Part shown: positions 5,391 to 13,897 of the stretch, one piece after another
Numbering within the stretch: the first letter of the stretch is position 1
How the letters are laid out: each line of letters begins with the position of its first letter
DNA from: Longimicrobium sp.
GTDB lineage: Bacteria > Gemmatimonadota > Gemmatimonadetes > Longimicrobiales > Longimicrobiaceae
NCBI GenBank assembly: GCA_036377595.1
Contig: DASUYB010000126.1
Location: 1 to 34,338, forward strand
DNA length: 34,338 nucleotides
Direction: 5' to 3'
Position numbers and translations under genes: made by a program
The notes under the pieces: model-generated
What the model saw: the letters and a program-made list of their open reading frames with translations, nothing else
Database searches by the model: none
Told to the model about the DNA's origin: nothing

Positions 5391-5854
5391 GGGTTCCTGT
5401 GGGGGATCGGGTGGGATGGTGGCGGCCGAGGACGATTGCCGCCGGAATGACAAAGGAATGGAGGGACGGACTCCAGCGATTTTCCGGAACTATGTGCGGT
5501 TGGATCGGCTTCTCACACGCGCCGTCCGAGCAATTGTGGGACCGGAAACGGCAGCTATCGTGCTGGTCAATCCAAACGTTTACGCGAGAACGGCTTGCCT
5601 CGCCGGCTGCGTCGACGCTCGCGCAACTTGCGGGGCGGCTGGGACACGGAAGGGACCGGCGGCGCGGGGCAACGGTGCCGCGATCGTCCGTGCCCCATTT
5701 CAAATGGTCGCAAACGAGGCGGAAGATGCACGACCATGCCGCGCGTGACAGGTCGTGCTCGAAATCCCGTCGCCCGCGGGTTAGCTTGCGGTTCCGAGAC
5801 CCCGCCGCCCGGCGGGGCCTCCGTTCATCGGGGGAAGGAGATCGGGAGAACCAC
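5391..5854. other. Intergenic region, no gene recognised
   Basis: This is the 464-bp gap between the divergent membrane-protein gene (minus) and the HD gene (plus). It is slightly AT-richer than its surroundings around 5450-5600. Open frames crossing it are extensions of neighbouring frames without protein-like composition. A GC hairpin (CCCCGCC / GGCGGGG, 5800-5817) lies about 38 bp before the HD start. Promoters for both genes should be here, but I cannot pick convincing -35/-10 pairs. Confidence 0.5.
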
Positions 5855-6556
5855 GTGGCGGAGATGGACGAGCAGCTGCGGCGGGAGATCCTCGCGCGCA
5901 CCGAGGCGCACGTGCGGCGCGAGATGAGCGGCGAGGGGACGGGGCACGACTGGTGGCATGTGCACCGCGTCCGCCGGACGGCGCTGCGGCTGGCGGAGGA
6001 GGAGGGCGCGGACCCATACGTGACGGAGTTGGCCGCGCTGCTGCACGATGTGGCCGACCACAAGTTCCACGGCGGCGACCACACCGCCGGCCCGCGCGCC
6101 GCCCGCGCCTGGCTCGAAGCCGCCGGCGCGGAGCCGGAGACCGTCGACCACGTCTGCGAGATCGTGGCCGGGCTGTCGTTCAAGGGCGCGGGCGTCCCGA
6201 CGCCGATGCGCACGCCGGAGGGCCGCGTGGTGCAGGACGCCGATCGCCTGGACGCGCTCGGCGCGGTGGGGATCGCGCGGGCGTTCGCGTACGGCGGCAG
6301 CCGAGGGCGCCCGCTGCACGACCCCGACGCGGCGCCGGAGATGCACGACAGCTTCGAGGCCTACAAGTCCGGAGCGGGCGCGACGACGGCGCACTTCCAC
6401 GAGAAGCTCCTCCTCCTCCGCGACCGGATGAACACCGCCGCCGCGCGCCGCGTGGCCGAGGGGCGGCACCGCTTCATGGAGGCGTTCCTGGCGCGCTTCC
6501 ACGCCGAGTGGGAGGGAGAGGACGGGATGGAGACGGATGGCGGCGGAGACGGCTGA
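5855..6556 (+). CDS. HD-domain phosphohydrolase
   Basis: A 233-residue protein with the HD metal-site residues in order: H35 and H37 in DWWHVHRV, the H64-D65 doublet in LLHDVADHKF, and D130 in VQDADRLDALGAVGIARAF. The pattern and length fit the YedJ-like HD hydrolase group, which acts on phosphorylated small molecules or nucleotides; the substrate is unknown. I prefer the GTG at 5855 because GGGAG lies 6 nt upstream; the ATG at 5864 (MDEQL) has poorly spaced signal and is the alternative. The 3' end overlaps the start of the metallo-hydrolase gene by 20 bp in another frame, so the two are translated together. Confidence 0.88.
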   Translation: MAEMDEQLRREILARTEAHVRREMSGEGTGHDWWHVHRVRRTALRLAEEEGADPYVTELAALLHDVADHKFHGGDHTAGPRAARAWLEAAGAEPETVDHVCEIVAGLSFKGAGVPTPMRTPEGRVVQDADRLDALGAVGIARAFAYGGSRGRPLHDPDAAPEMHDSFEAYKSGAGATTAHFHEKLLLLRDRMNTAAARRVAEGRHRFMEAFLARFHAEWEGEDGMETDGGGDG

Positions 6557-7442
6557 CCTGGGTGGCGGCGCGTACGTGCTGCGCGGCGCCGTCAACAGCG
6601 GGCTGGTGGAGACGGAGAACGGGCTCCTGGCCGTCGACACGGGGCTGGACCGCGGCGCCGCCAACCGCGTCGCGCGCGCGGCGGAGGAGCTCGGCCGGCC
6701 CCTCGTCGCCATCCTCAACACCCACGCGCACGCCGACCACCACGGCGGCAACGCGCACCTCGTCCGCCGGCTCGGCATCCCCGTCCACGCGCCGGCGGTG
6801 GAGGAGGCGGTGATCCGCGAGCCGCGCTACGAGCCCGTGTACCTGTACGGCGGCGCCGCGCCCGTCTCCGCGCTCACCAGCAAGTTCCTGCAGGCCGAGC
6901 CCTCGCCCGTGGACCACGTGGTGCGCGCGGGCGAAACGGTGACGATCGACGGCCGCGCGCTGGAGATCGTGGACCTGGCGGGGCACAGCCTGGCGCAGGT
7001 GGGCGTCCGCGCGGGCGACGTGCTCTTCGTGGCGGACGGCTTCTTCGGGCGCGAGCCGCTGGAGAAGCACGGCGTCCCCTATCTCGTCGACGCGGGGCGG
7101 TGGATGGAGACGCTGCGCGCGCTGGGCGGGATGGACGCGGCGTGGATGGTCCCCGGCCACGGCGAGCCGCTCGACGACCCGCGGGAGACGCTGGCGCTGA
7201 ACCTCGCCGTCCTCCAGCGCGCGTCCGACTGGCTGCGCGACCGCTTCCGCCGCGGTCCCGCGCGCACCGAGGACCTGCTCGTCGAGTTCGCCGGGGCGAT
7301 GGGGATGCGCCTGGTCGACCCGCCCTCCTACGCGCTCAACCGCGCCGCCATGCTCGGCTTCCTCTCCACTCTCGAGCGCGAGGGCGCCGTGCGCGTGATG
7401 ATCGACGGCGGCCGCTGGACGTGGCTCCCCGCCGAGGGGTGA
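6537..7442 (+). CDS. MBL-fold metallo-hydrolase
   Basis: A 301-residue metallo-beta-lactamase-fold protein. Zinc-site residues are visible: H63-x-H65-x-D67-H68 in NTHAHADHHGG, H150 in DLAGHSLAQVG, D167 in FVADGFFG and H208 in MVPGHGEP. The last 90 residues (RTEDLLVEFAGAMGM ... LNRAAMLGFLSTLEREGAV) look like the winged-helix tail of MBL hydrolases that act on thioesters or similar substrates. It probably hydrolyses a small metabolite. The ATG at 6537 lies inside the end of the HD gene, so both products are likely made from one message in a related process. Confidence 0.88.
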   Translation: MAAETADLGGGAYVLRGAVNSGLVETENGLLAVDTGLDRGAANRVARAAEELGRPLVAILNTHAHADHHGGNAHLVRRLGIPVHAPAVEEAVIREPRYEPVYLYGGAAPVSALTSKFLQAEPSPVDHVVRAGETVTIDGRALEIVDLAGHSLAQVGVRAGDVLFVADGFFGREPLEKHGVPYLVDAGRWMETLRALGGMDAAWMVPGHGEPLDDPRETLALNLAVLQRASDWLRDRFRRGPARTEDLLVEFAGAMGMRLVDPPSYALNRAAMLGFLSTLEREGAVRVMIDGGRWTWLPAEG

Positions 7443-7501
7443 AGCGGAGTCGACCAGGCCGCACGCCATCCCGCGTCCGCGCGTACGAGCGAAGCGAGCC
7501 C

Positions 7502-7533
7502 GTCCCTCCCCCAGTCTGTTTTGGGGGAGGGAC
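7502..7533. repeat. Perfect 12-bp hairpin in a short dispersed repeat
   Basis: GTCCCTCCCCCA pairs perfectly with TGGGGGAGGGAC across an 8-nt loop, flanked by GAGCGAAGCGAG on the left and GACGCGAAGCGTC on the right. Together they form a compact palindromic cluster 60-90 bp after the metallo-hydrolase stop. Related CCCTCTCCC hairpins occur at 25904-25937 and 26087-26109. It could help end transcription, but its composition suggests a dispersed intergenic palindrome. Confidence 0.6.
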
Positions 7534-7606
7534 AGACGCGAAGCGTCAGGGAGAGGGCCACGCGGCGGCGTCTGCGGCTGGATCGATGCGTTTGGTATGA
7601 TCGAGA

Positions 7607-7648
7607 ACGAAGCGGGGCCGGAAGAATCTCCGGCCCCGCTTCGTTTTT
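7607..7648 (+). terminator. Strong intrinsic terminator
   Basis: A perfect 16-bp stem (arms 7607-7622 and 7629-7644, core GCGGGGCCGGA) with a 6-nt loop is followed by a T-run on the plus strand. It ends the HD/MBL transcript. It also lies 25 bp past the stop of the convergent peptidase gene and may stop that transcript too, though the minus-strand side lacks a clear T-run. Confidence 0.85.
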
Positions 7649-7672
7649 CCTCATCTCCCGATCACCCCAAGC

Positions 7673-9406
7673 CTACTGCACGCAGCGGCCGTTCGGGTCG
7701 GGCTTCGGGTGATCGACGACCGGGCGATGGTCGAGGTTGGCCACGTGCGTCGCCAGGTCGGCCACGTAGTTGGCCACCTGCGCCAGCCGCGCGTAGTCGA
7801 TGTGCTGCGGCTCGTCGGTCACCTGGTGGTAGTCCGCGTGCCCGCCGGTGGTGAAGAAGATGATGGGTATGCCGTAGCGCGCGTACTCGTAGTGGTCGCT
7901 GCGGCAGTAGATGTTCTGCGGGTGCCCGTTGGCGTCCATCGCGTAGTCGAAGTTCAGCCCGTGGTTCCCCTGGCGGTTCACCGTCTCGGCCAGGTCGCCC
8001 AGCTCCGTCGACAGCCGCCGCGAGCCCACCAGCTGCACGTAGCCCGGCCCGCCGTGCAGCTTCGCGCCGTCCTTGCTGGAGCCGGTGACGTCGTCCGCGC
8101 CGCCGCGGCCGATCATGTCCATGTTCAGCTGCGCGACGATGGACTCGCGCGGCACCGTGGGATGGTCGGTGAAGTACTCCGAGCCGAGCAGCCCCGCCTC
8201 CTCGCCCACGTGCCACACGAACAGCAGCGAGCGCTTGGGATGCGGCCGCGAGGCGAAGTACTGGGCGATCTCCAGCAGCCCCATCGACCCCGAGCCGTCG
8301 TCGTCGGCGCCGTTGTAGATGGTGTCGCCGCGCGCGGACGTGCCGCCGGTGCGCTGGCGGATGGTGGCCAGGATGCCGTTCACCTGCGCCTGCTGCTCGG
8401 CCGTCAGCCGCGGGGCCGGATCGTCGGCGCCCTCGGTGCGGAAGAGGTGGTTGACGACGTAGATGGAGTCGTTCGCGACGGGGTCGCCGCCTTCGCCCAC
8501 GTGGTCGTTGTGCGCGCCGAGCGCGACGTACTCGCGGCGCAGCGCGGGGTCGCTCCCCGGCAGCACCGCCACCACGTTGCGCGCGGAGATGGGCACCGGC
8601 CGCTCGATGAAGCGCGGCCCGCCCGTCACCGTGCCGCCCGTGGCACCCGGCTGCAGCGTCGCCGGGTCCGCGCCCAGCAGCGCCGCGGCCGCCCGCTTCG
8701 TCACGTACATGTACGCGGGAAGCTCGGGAGACTGGCCGCCCTGCATCACCTGCAGCGGCTGGCGGTAGATGGCCAGCGACGCGGGGGTGATGTCGTCGAG
8801 CCCGGCGATGGCGATCCCCGCGGCGCGGCGGTAGCGGCGGGTGATGGCGGGGCGGCTGACGGTCCCCGGCGGGTTGCCCACGAAGCCGGGGCCGAGGGCC
8901 ACCACCACCAGCTTCCCGGCCACCGCGGCCGAGTCCACCATGTGCGCGGAATCGGCCATCATCCCCGCGTACACCACCTGCACCCCCTCCAGCGAGCGCG
9001 CGCCGGAGCCGTTGTCGCGCGGGAGATAGTCCACCCAGGCGCGCAGTCGCTGGCCACCGGCGTTGAGCGTGGCGGTGGTGTCCATCACCCGCTCGACGTA
9101 GGGGATGGCCTGGAAGAAGGTGCCGTTGTCGCCGGCCGGCTGCAGCCCGAAGCGCCGCAGCTCGCTGGCGATGTACTCCACCCCCTTCCGGTTCCCCTCC
9201 GAGGCGATCAGCCGCCCGCCCATGGAGTCGTCGGAGAAGGCGTACAGCCGCGTCATCAGGTCGGCGGGATTGATGGCGGCGGTGGTGGGCGTGGGCGCGT
9301 GCGTGCGCGGGCGGCCCAGCCCCGCCCACGGGTCCGGAGCCTGCGCGGCCAGGGGCGTCGCGGCCAGCGCCAGCAGCGGAAGGAGCCTCGAAAGCGTGCG
9401 TGTCAT
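7673..9406 (-). CDS. Secreted M28 family metallopeptidase
   Basis: A 577-residue protein from the ATG at 9406 with a classical signal peptide (MTRTLSRLLPLLALAATPLAAQA). It has the five M28 zinc-site positions in order: His in ALGAHNDHVG, Asp in YNGADDDGSGS, the Glu pair in WHVGEEAGLLGSEYF, Asp in LNMDMIGRGG, and His near the end in GGHADYHQVTDE. The stretch between the signal peptide and the first ligand (with VVYAGMMADS and KLVVVALGPGF) looks like an inserted protease-associated (PA) domain. It should be a periplasmic or extracellular aminopeptidase. An in-frame ATG at 9508 would put 34 polar residues ahead of the signal peptide and is rejected. It is a single gene. Confidence 0.93.
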   Translation of the reverse strand: MTRTLSRLLPLLALAATPLAAQAPDPWAGLGRPRTHAPTPTTAAINPADLMTRLYAFSDDSMGGRLIASEGNRKGVEYIASELRRFGLQPAGDNGTFFQAIPYVERVMDTTATLNAGGQRLRAWVDYLPRDNGSGARSLEGVQVVYAGMMADSAHMVDSAAVAGKLVVVALGPGFVGNPPGTVSRPAITRRYRRAAGIAIAGLDDITPASLAIYRQPLQVMQGGQSPELPAYMYVTKRAAAALLGADPATLQPGATGGTVTGGPRFIERPVPISARNVVAVLPGSDPALRREYVALGAHNDHVGEGGDPVANDSIYVVNHLFRTEGADDPAPRLTAEQQAQVNGILATIRQRTGGTSARGDTIYNGADDDGSGSMGLLEIAQYFASRPHPKRSLLFVWHVGEEAGLLGSEYFTDHPTVPRESIVAQLNMDMIGRGGADDVTGSSKDGAKLHGGPGYVQLVGSRRLSTELGDLAETVNRQGNHGLNFDYAMDANGHPQNIYCRSDHYEYARYGIPIIFFTTGGHADYHQVTDEPQHIDYARLAQVANYVADLATHVANLDHRPVVDHPKPDPNGRCVQ

Positions 9407-11859: not shown

Positions 11860-12831
11860 TCACCCCACGGTGCGCACCATCGCGGGCGTCGAGGCCTCGA
11901 CCTCCTCGCTGCGGAGGACGGTGGTCTCGCCCTGCTCGCGGCGGTTCTGGAGGATGACCTCGAGCTCGCGCTCGCGCAGGTTCAGCGTGTACCCCGCGCC
12001 CACGATCCCCACGCGCAGGTAGCTGAGGGTGAGCGCGCAGCCGTCCATGCACTGGTCGGCGTTGTCGAAGCGCACCCCGCGCCCGTCCACGAACGTCACC
12101 GAACCCCGCCCCACCACCTCGCCCAGGTGGCCGCGGACGACCATCGCCGTGTCTTCGTCGATCCCCAGCCCCATCAGCTCGGCGTTGCGGGCGATGACCA
12201 TGAACAGGCGCTGCAGCCGCCGCCGCTGCGTGAAGTGCGTGTCGATCACCGCGCGGAAGCCCAGCAGCCCGAAGCCGGGACCGAGGTGGACGTCCTGCAT
12301 CTTCCCGTACTCGTCGGGCTCGCCGCCGGCCAGGATGGTCTCGGTGAGCGCCGCCGCGCCCGCGCTGGTGCCGCAGACCACGGCGCCCGCGGTGTACGCC
12401 TCGGCCAGCGCGCGCCCCACCCGCGACCCGCCGATGGTGGTCACCAGGTGCACCTGGTCGCCGCCGCCCAGGAAGATGCCGTCGGCCTCGCGGATCATCT
12501 CCGCCACCCGGGCGTCCTGGGCGCGGTCGCGGCTGTCGATGATGGGCATCTCCACGTGCGTGGCGCCCGCCTCGATGAACGACCGCAGCCACTCGCGCGC
12601 CGACCGCGTGGGGTTGGCCGACGCGGTGGTGATGCCCACGATGCGGCCGCCCTCGCGCCCGCCGGCCAGGTCCACGAAGCGGCCGAACGCCTCGCCGGTG
12701 GCCTCGCAGGCGCCGCCGATCAGCACCAGCGTGCCGTCGTGGCGGTCGCCGCGCCGCCGGTTGGGCGCCTCGTCCGCCGCGACGCGGCCGCGGTCGCCGC
12801 CGCTCCTACCGTTCCCCGACTGCCGCTCCAT
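11860..12831 (-). CDS. cphB: Cyanophycinase (peptidase S51)
   Basis: A 323-residue protein matching cyanophycinase, which cuts cyanophycin (multi-L-arginyl-poly-L-aspartate) to beta-Asp-Arg dipeptides. Visible hallmarks: GTLVLIGGACE at the start of the fold, Gln126 in FLGGGDQVHLV, the nucleophile Ser156 in CGTSAGAAAL, and His199 in VIDTHFTQRRRLQRL followed by GLGIDEDTAM, all in CphB order and spacing. The ATG at 12831 is chosen because the core starts 30 residues later; frames further upstream are Arg-rich shadow. It overlaps the end of the CphA-like gene by 26 bp, so the two are co-translated. No signal peptide is seen, so it is probably cytoplasmic. Confidence 0.92.
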   Translation of the reverse strand: MERQSGNGRSGGDRGRVAADEAPNRRRGDRHDGTLVLIGGACEATGEAFGRFVDLAGGREGGRIVGITTASANPTRSAREWLRSFIEAGATHVEMPIIDSRDRAQDARVAEMIREADGIFLGGGDQVHLVTTIGGSRVGRALAEAYTAGAVVCGTSAGAAALTETILAGGEPDEYGKMQDVHLGPGFGLLGFRAVIDTHFTQRRRLQRLFMVIARNAELMGLGIDEDTAMVVRGHLGEVVGRGSVTFVDGRGVRFDNADQCMDGCALTLSYLRVGIVGAGYTLNLRERELEVILQNRREQGETTVLRSEEVEASTPAMVRTVG

Positions 12832-13897
12832 CCGCCTGTCGCTCCCCGGTTTCCGTCTCCAGCTCCCGCAGCGAGCGCACCGCCAGCGCCGCCGCCACCT
12901 GCGCCGCGGGCGAGGCCCCGCCGTCCACCTCGCCCCCATCTTCCGTAGACCCCGCAAGCTCCATCACGATCCGCCCCTCGCGCACGAAGGCCACGGCGTG
13001 GGCCACGCGCGCGTCGCGCTCGGTGACGTCGTCGCCCGTGGAGAAGATGGCCACACGGCACCCGGCGTCGCGCGCGATGTCCTGGATCTCCCACTCCTTC
13101 GCGGGGCAGACGACGATGCCGTCCTCGACCACCGCGTCGGCGGGGACGGAGACCAGGCGCCGCGCCAGCTCGGGGTCGCGGTAGCGGTCGGGGACGTCGC
13201 CCGGCTCGGCGTCGAGCACCACGGCGATGTCGCTGCGCGCGTACGGCAGCCCGGCGTTGAGGAGGTACGACGGCGCCAGGTCCACCACCAGCTCGCCCGG
13301 GCCGAGCCCGCGCCGCACCATCTCGTCGCGCACCCCCGCGCGGTCGCCCCCGCCGGCGATGCCGCACAGCACGTGCTGCTGCAGCGCTGGGACGTCCGGC
13401 GTCCCAGCCAGCGCGGCCAGCTCGGCCAGCGCGAAGTCCACCGCGGCGCGGTCCAGCTCGCCCGCGAAGCCGCGCTGCACCAGCTCCAGCGCCAGCGCGG
13501 CGGCGCGCAGCCCCACCTCGGCGTGCAGGTGCTCGAAGATCACCGTGTACTCGCCCGCCCGGTCGCCGCCGCGCGCGCGGCCGTAGCCCACGTCGTGGCC
13601 CACCATCGACTGCAGCTCGAGCCCCACGTGCTCCACCACGTGCGGCGCGAACGTCCCCCGCCGCAGCCGGGTGACGAAGCCGCCGCGCTCGCCGATGCTG
13701 CAGCGGTGCTCCCACAGCCCGGGAAGCGCGGCGATCAGGGCCTCGGTGAACCCCGCCGCGTGCGCCGACGAGATCTCGTCGTACGCGCCCGGCGCCAGGT
13801 CGACGCGCGTGACCGGGCGGCGCGACCAGAGGTTCGCGCCGCGCAGGCTGCGCAGGGACAGCAGGCGGATCTCGGTGTACGGGTCGGGCCGGCTCAT
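12806..13897 (-). CDS. Shortened cyanophycin-synthetase-like protein (N domain plus remnant Mur-like segment)
   Basis: A 363-residue protein whose first ~150 residues match the CphA N domain: IRLLSLRSLRGANLWS (10-25), LPGLWEHRCSIGERGGFVTRL (58-78), then GTFAPHVVEHVGLELQ with H86-V-V-E89-H90, and YTVIFEHLHAEVGLRAA. Full CphA is about 870 residues with an ATP-grasp domain and then a Mur-ligase-like domain. Here the ATP-grasp is absent. Residues ~200-316 (ELVVDLAPSYLLNAGLPY, SDIAVVLDAEPGDVP, DGIVVCPAKEWEI, CRVAIFSTGDD) align by eye with the middle of the Mur-like domain, while the P-loop region reads GIAGGGDRAG without Lys. It therefore cannot be a normal polymerase. The ATG at 13897 is chosen because the N-domain signature starts at residue 10; the closest GAGGA is very near it. 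It overlaps cphB. Confidence 0.82.
   Translation of the reverse strand: MSRPDPYTEIRLLSLRSLRGANLWSRRPVTRVDLAPGAYDEISSAHAAGFTEALIAALPGLWEHRCSIGERGGFVTRLRRGTFAPHVVEHVGLELQSMVGHDVGYGRARGGDRAGEYTVIFEHLHAEVGLRAAALALELVQRGFAGELDRAAVDFALAELAALAGTPDVPALQQHVLCGIAGGGDRAGVRDEMVRRGLGPGELVVDLAPSYLLNAGLPYARSDIAVVLDAEPGDVPDRYRDPELARRLVSVPADAVVEDGIVVCPAKEWEIQDIARDAGCRVAIFSTGDDVTERDARVAHAVAFVREGRIVMELAGSTEDGGEVDGGASPAAQVAAALAVRSLRELETETGERQADGAAVGER

Follow-up and report, generated by a model that had tools for sequence, protein, structure and literature searches.

How cyanophycin chains are started was an open problem until 2022, when a site in the N domain of the synthetase CphA1 was found to make primers, and the authors of that work knew of no other polymerase with a primer-making site of its own (PMC9262961). 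In the Synechocystis UTEX2470 enzyme (SuCphA1; PDB 7lg5 and 7txv; PMC9262961), the N domain cleaves cyanophycin into primers at a metal site of one cysteine and two histidines together with a glutamate, which are C59, H79, H83 and E82, arranged as Cx19HxxEH. This N-domain class of endo-cyanophycinase is further marked by the supporting residues H57, F67 and R70, by zinc binding and by cleavage of cyanophycin to (beta-Asp-Arg)4. In the CphA1-polymer complex, S603 and E607 of the M domain also contact the chain lying in the N site. The N domain by itself is insoluble until its M-facing loop is mutated (PMC9262961). Supplied in trans, the isolated SuCphA1 N domain makes a primer-dependent CphA1 primer-independent (Sharon et al. 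2022; PMC9262961), indicating that an N-domain protein can serve a separate synthetase. Two other proteins invite comparison: CphA2, a reduced CphA relative that is an active ATP-dependent ligase without the N-site motif (PMC9262961, PMC10206079), and the cyanophycinase CphB, which also degrades cyanophycin but belongs to the unrelated S51 family and acts as an exo-enzyme (PMC10206079).

We analysed a 34,338-nt stretch of DNA from Longimicrobium sp. (contig DASUYB010000126.1), here called the window, in which a short CphA-derived gene lies next to a cyanophycinase gene. The relevant features are:

11860–12831, minus strand: cyanophycinase (CphB, peptidase S51; TIGR02069, E = 4e-54, above cut-off; PF03575, E = 4e-20)
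12806–13897, minus strand: short CphA-derived gene, a predicted stand-alone endo-cyanophycinase of 363 aa (ORF and translation; PF18921; AlphaFold2 model)
12863–13384, minus strand: reduced Mur-like core, residues ~172–345, without P-loop Lys, catalytic His or lid (profile E = 1e-6; Mur ligases, Z 12–15)
13136–13150, minus strand: S250 to D254, aligned with the polymer-touching S603 and E607 of the SuCphA1 M domain
13418–13870, minus strand: N domain, residues ~10–160 (PF18921; aligned with SuCphA1 2–157)
13628–13702, minus strand: metal site C66-x19-H86-x-x-E89-H90, equivalent to SuCphA1 C59, H79, E82 and H83 (sequence; published site in PMC9262961)

The short gene runs from an ATG at 13897 to a stop at 12806 through 363 uninterrupted codons. 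Its product matches PF18921, the CphA N domain, over residues 32–141 (E = 6.9e-33; 113.5 bits against a cut-off of 27); this is the sole Pfam match across the 363 residues, with no ATP-grasp, Mur, S51 or M16 domain, and ATP-grasp Pfam domains are present in the CphA1 of the same genome. NCBIfam synthetase models align with the first 145 residues and score 154 bits against a cut-off of 877. Comparison with relatives gave a dN/dS of ~0.37–0.49, pointing to purifying selection. The sequence-only reading of this DNA had described an intact frame that is not a dying gene, an N-terminal CphA N domain with H86-V-V-E89-H90, and the loss of the ATP-grasp domain, the C-terminal lid and the P-loop lysine, and each of these points stands.

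The same reading had noted that some CphA N domains are reported to hydrolyse cyanophycin to make primers and had suggested that HxxEH could be part of such a site, in agreement with the published Cx19HxxEH (PMC9262961). It had missed C66, which lies 19 residues before H86 and makes the motif exact. The window protein aligns directly with Synechocystis CphA1 at the metal site, and since the chain in 7txv, which is CphA1 E82Q solved with bound cyanophycin, reads HIVQHV where the wild type has HIVEHV, E89 corresponds to E82, the general base that was mutated there. Across the 31 short N domains that we collected, C66, H86, E89 and H90 are invariant, and all 31 keep H57, C59, S60, F67, R70, H79, E82, H83, R102 and Y110 (Synechocystis numbers), including the supporting residues of the class; the E90 contact is conserved neither among the shorts nor in most of the CphA1s that we gathered. 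The short proteins have kept metal ligands, general base and polymer contacts alike, so the hydrolase half of the earlier suggestion, a stand-alone hydrolase or polymer-binding module, is the better supported; zinc binding and cleavage to (beta-Asp-Arg)4 are predicted for the short protein as well. We also considered membership of the M16 inverzincins, given the HxxEH, and rejected it: the candidate third ligand is an upstream cysteine, as in CphA1, and no M16 Pfam match was found.

Profile and structure comparisons bore out the by-eye relation of the second half to the centre of a Mur-like domain. For residues ~155–363, a profile built from twelve short relatives found cyanophycin synthases as its only significant PDB matches, at M-domain residues 555–667 (E = 1e-6 and 2e-5); a whole-length hhalign comparison was set aside, as its C-terminal half ran into the ATP-grasp region. 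An AlphaFold2 model built from 16 sequences (mean pLDDT 94.2, pTM 0.87) superposes through residues 10–345 on residues 1–709 of the 7txv chain, with Z 32.4 and 2.6 Å over 333 residues. Since one superposition fits both domains, their packing is that of CphA1 with the ATP-grasp excised. The second half of the model matches the centres of Mur ligases (Z 12–15), and CphA2 is a further structural match (Z 12.9–13.8), although the short protein, unlike CphA2, has the N-site motif and no ATP-grasp.

Compared with CphA1, the short protein lacks the ATP-grasp, the GTNGKT P-loop, the D585-H586 catalytic pair and the Mur lid, and therefore cannot be a synthetase. GTNGK and the lid are absent from the short proteins, and H586 is replaced by V or L in 16 of 16 aligned shorts. 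The segment GIAGGGDRAG had been taken for a decayed P-loop. Two comparisons place it differently: in the structural matches the aligned ranges begin with the P-loop strand of Mur ligases, which favours the old P-loop, whereas MAFFT sets GDRAG on the GDMTGP motif (GDxTGP), downstream of the P-loop; whichever placement holds, the short protein has no P-loop. The equivalent of E607 is D or E in all 16 aligned shorts; where SuCphA1 has S603, most of them have S or N. The insolubility of the isolated N domain explains why the short protein would keep its M core, which we infer to cover the N domain and to form one side of the cleft. This retained half of the M domain, which distinguishes the natural protein from the isolated SuCphA1 N domain, would take the place of the solubilising mutations and provide contacts like those of S603 and E607. 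In the short protein of one relative (G012; L040/L066), the Mur-like half is strongly diverged from residue ~170 onward and the N domain is conserved.

The short form occurs in ~30 Gemmatimonadota genomes overall. Within the family of the window genome, 16 of 21 genomes carry it; among 298 genomes sampled across the phylum it was found in 22, all of which also have a full CphA1, and it extends to a second family, probably Gemmatimonadaceae. The ATP-grasp-less form was absent from sampled genomes of Pseudomonadota (0/398), Acidobacteriota (0/247), Planctomycetota (0/246) and Bacteroidota (0/247), and one collection scan showed none outside Gemmatimonadota among the matches listed. In an N-domain tree the shorts form a single clade (support 100/99), so the ATP-grasp-less clade with conserved H86, E89 and H90 that had been envisaged exists. 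That tree groups them with the partnered Gemmatimonadota CphA1s at 92/82. A second tree gives this grouping a support of 55, both branches are long, and with the M-core profile no CphA class scores clearly best, which leaves the ancestor of the short form unsettled.

A 171-aa N-domain ORF in Bacteroidota, tried as a second stand-alone form, was discarded: the remaining CphA lies 2.3 kb downstream, making this an interrupted gene.

L161:2840–3352 and 5636–7966, plus strand: interrupted CphA, Bacteroidota, with a ~2.3-kb break just after the N domain

Separately, a 291-aa protein from Acidobacteriota (L163:2256–3128, plus strand) with a sub-threshold PF18921 match (E = 1e-5) and an HLLEH motif is possibly a very divergent second stand-alone relative.

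The usual gene order in relatives is cphA1, short gene, cphB, with small gaps or overlaps. In the window genome and its sister species (G003), the short gene stays with cphB, and cphA1 is located elsewhere. In the window, the ATG of cphB lies within the short frame, and the two genes share 26 nt. The two N domains of the window genome are those of the short protein and of a full-length CphA1 on another contig (L003 7028–9763), a gene whose presence had been suggested as a check. A second cyanophycinase (L003:14313–15209, minus strand), ~36% identical to that of the window, lies ~4.5 kb from the full-length cphA1. The last steps of degradation could fall to two isoaspartyl-peptidase-type genes (PF01112) at other loci of the genome.

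The partnered synthetases differ at positions that touch the polymer. In CphA1s that have a short partner, position 102 is V (28/29), 110 is W (26/29) and 607 is A (25/29), with the metal ligands mostly kept; Gemmatimonadota CphA1s without one have R102 in 17 of 20, Y110 in 19 of 20 and E607 in 11 of 12 readable cases. The sole row with R and Y in the partnered group is the short protein of G195, grouped there with its match cut by a contig end, and the sole W in the unpartnered group belongs to a species of the window genus (G002). The partnered synthetases form one clade, so the three replacements count as one change rather than 29. A second, independent case of site loss in a partner synthetase comes from another genome, G274:

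L168:3778–7152, plus strand: full-length CphA1 with an intact frame that has lost R70, H79 and H83, adjoining a short protein with the full site

This CphA1 reads C-V-G-G-A-S-G-D-F-A-E-A-L-T-S-G-A-E-L-T-F-V-L-E-R through the site. A lost site in the synthetase and a complete one in the neighbouring short protein are as expected if the short protein carries the function.

These comparisons establish the architecture, its conservation, the operon, the modelled fold and the residue replacements in the partner synthetase. From them we infer the catalysis, metal, substrate and direction of use of the short protein: it is probably a stand-alone, likely zinc-dependent endo-cyanophycinase that took over primer-making, descended from a CphA-type protein that lost its ATP-grasp and whose Mur domain decayed. 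The predicted metal ligands are C66, H86 and H90, with E89 as the residue that would activate water, and a groove between the N domain (S67, R77, R109 and Y117) and the Mur-like core (S250 and D254) would take up the cyanophycin backbone. This core, its ATP binding gone, would still cover the hydrophobic face of the N domain and form one wall of the cleft. Zinc-type endo-cleavage of the polyaspartate backbone would release short beta-Asp-Arg oligomers. These would most likely prime the full-length CphA1 of the cell, in which the N site lacks some of its polymer contacts, and the internal cuts would also give CphB, the exo-enzyme of the next gene, more chain ends to work from. Whether the whole history applies, with the cutting site of CphA1 duplicated into a trans-acting primer-maker, a dead Mur core reused as a wall and the synthetase site decaying afterwards, we regard as evenly balanced. 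As the metal ligands persist in most partnered CphA1s, the N site of these synthetases may still work and the short protein may in part duplicate it; the replacements they carry may also go back to one ancient event that had nothing to do with the short gene.

The main rival keeps the endo-cyanophycinase and changes its purpose: by opening chains, the enzyme would let CphB mobilise granules faster. This reading, which does not exclude primer-making, is credible but somewhat the less expected. The overlap with cphB and the exo mode of CphB (PMC10206079) speak for it, and the persistence of the short-cphB pair in the two genomes where cphA1 has moved counts against a primer role and fits degradation equally well. 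That separation was probably one event, however, since the two genomes are sister species; in most relatives cphA1 lies directly upstream in the same array, and a hand-over of the primer function accounts better for the site residues missing from the partnered CphA1. The short protein might instead join full-length CphA1 as a subunit of one assembly, contributing its N site or altering the oligomer, with little activity alone. The CphA1-like N/M packing of the model and the shared operon in most relatives are consistent with this, as is the report that in CphA1 the closeness of the N, G and M sites accelerates synthesis without a primer (PMC9262961), but the protein has no ATP-grasp domain and the two genes sit on different contigs in the window genome, and we consider co-assembly unlikely.

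A non-catalytic cyanophycin-binding or granule protein would account for the polymer contacts retained in the shorts, and the CphA1 N domain does also bind the polymer loosely (PMC9262961); yet binding alone needs no invariance of C66, H86, E89 and H90 in 31 of 31 sequences, which makes this reading improbable. That the gene is a decaying or mis-assembled CphA has next to no likelihood. Two domains are absent or reduced, and one relative (G013) has its short gene broken across two frames, probably through an assembly error, but the well-supported clade, the purifying selection, the confidently modelled fold and the intact full-length CphA1 alongside all refute it. A broken or split CphA is thus ruled out, as is an intact CphA interrupted in one assembly.

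The chemistry and the domain of the proposed endo-cyanophycinase are already known. A search of the open-access literature found no natural stand-alone or truncated form without the ATP-grasp, and the main text of a cyanophycin gene cluster survey (PMC10206079) mentions neither the N domain, nor truncated or stand-alone forms, nor Gemmatimonadota. If the primer-making reading is true, some bacteria have moved the starting of storage-polymer chains into a separate protein, and a natural site-only protein beside a site-depleted synthetase would show primer-making to be a separate, separately regulated step. The short protein also offers a natural, possibly soluble, predicted endo-cyanophycinase for comparison with the engineered N domain. 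In heterologous hosts the yield depends on how much primer is available, which limits it about two-fold in E. coli (PMC9262961), and an enzyme of this kind could therefore be of use in production.

A similar separation is seen in another architecture. Beta-proteobacterial tandems, near 5900–10800 of L072, L076, L083, L084, L086, L099, L105, L106, L109, L115, L120 and L126, encode a ~745-aa CphA' with an intact Cx19HxxEH and an ATP-grasp, followed by a ~860–905-aa CphA without the motif; here as well, one protein seems to carry the primer site and another the polymerase. Like the short protein, CphA' is related to CphA, has the motif but no canonical P-loop, and is encoded in tandem with a full synthetase. 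Unlike the short protein, it keeps the ATP-grasp domain. The CphA'/CphA pair is the nearest parallel that we encountered.
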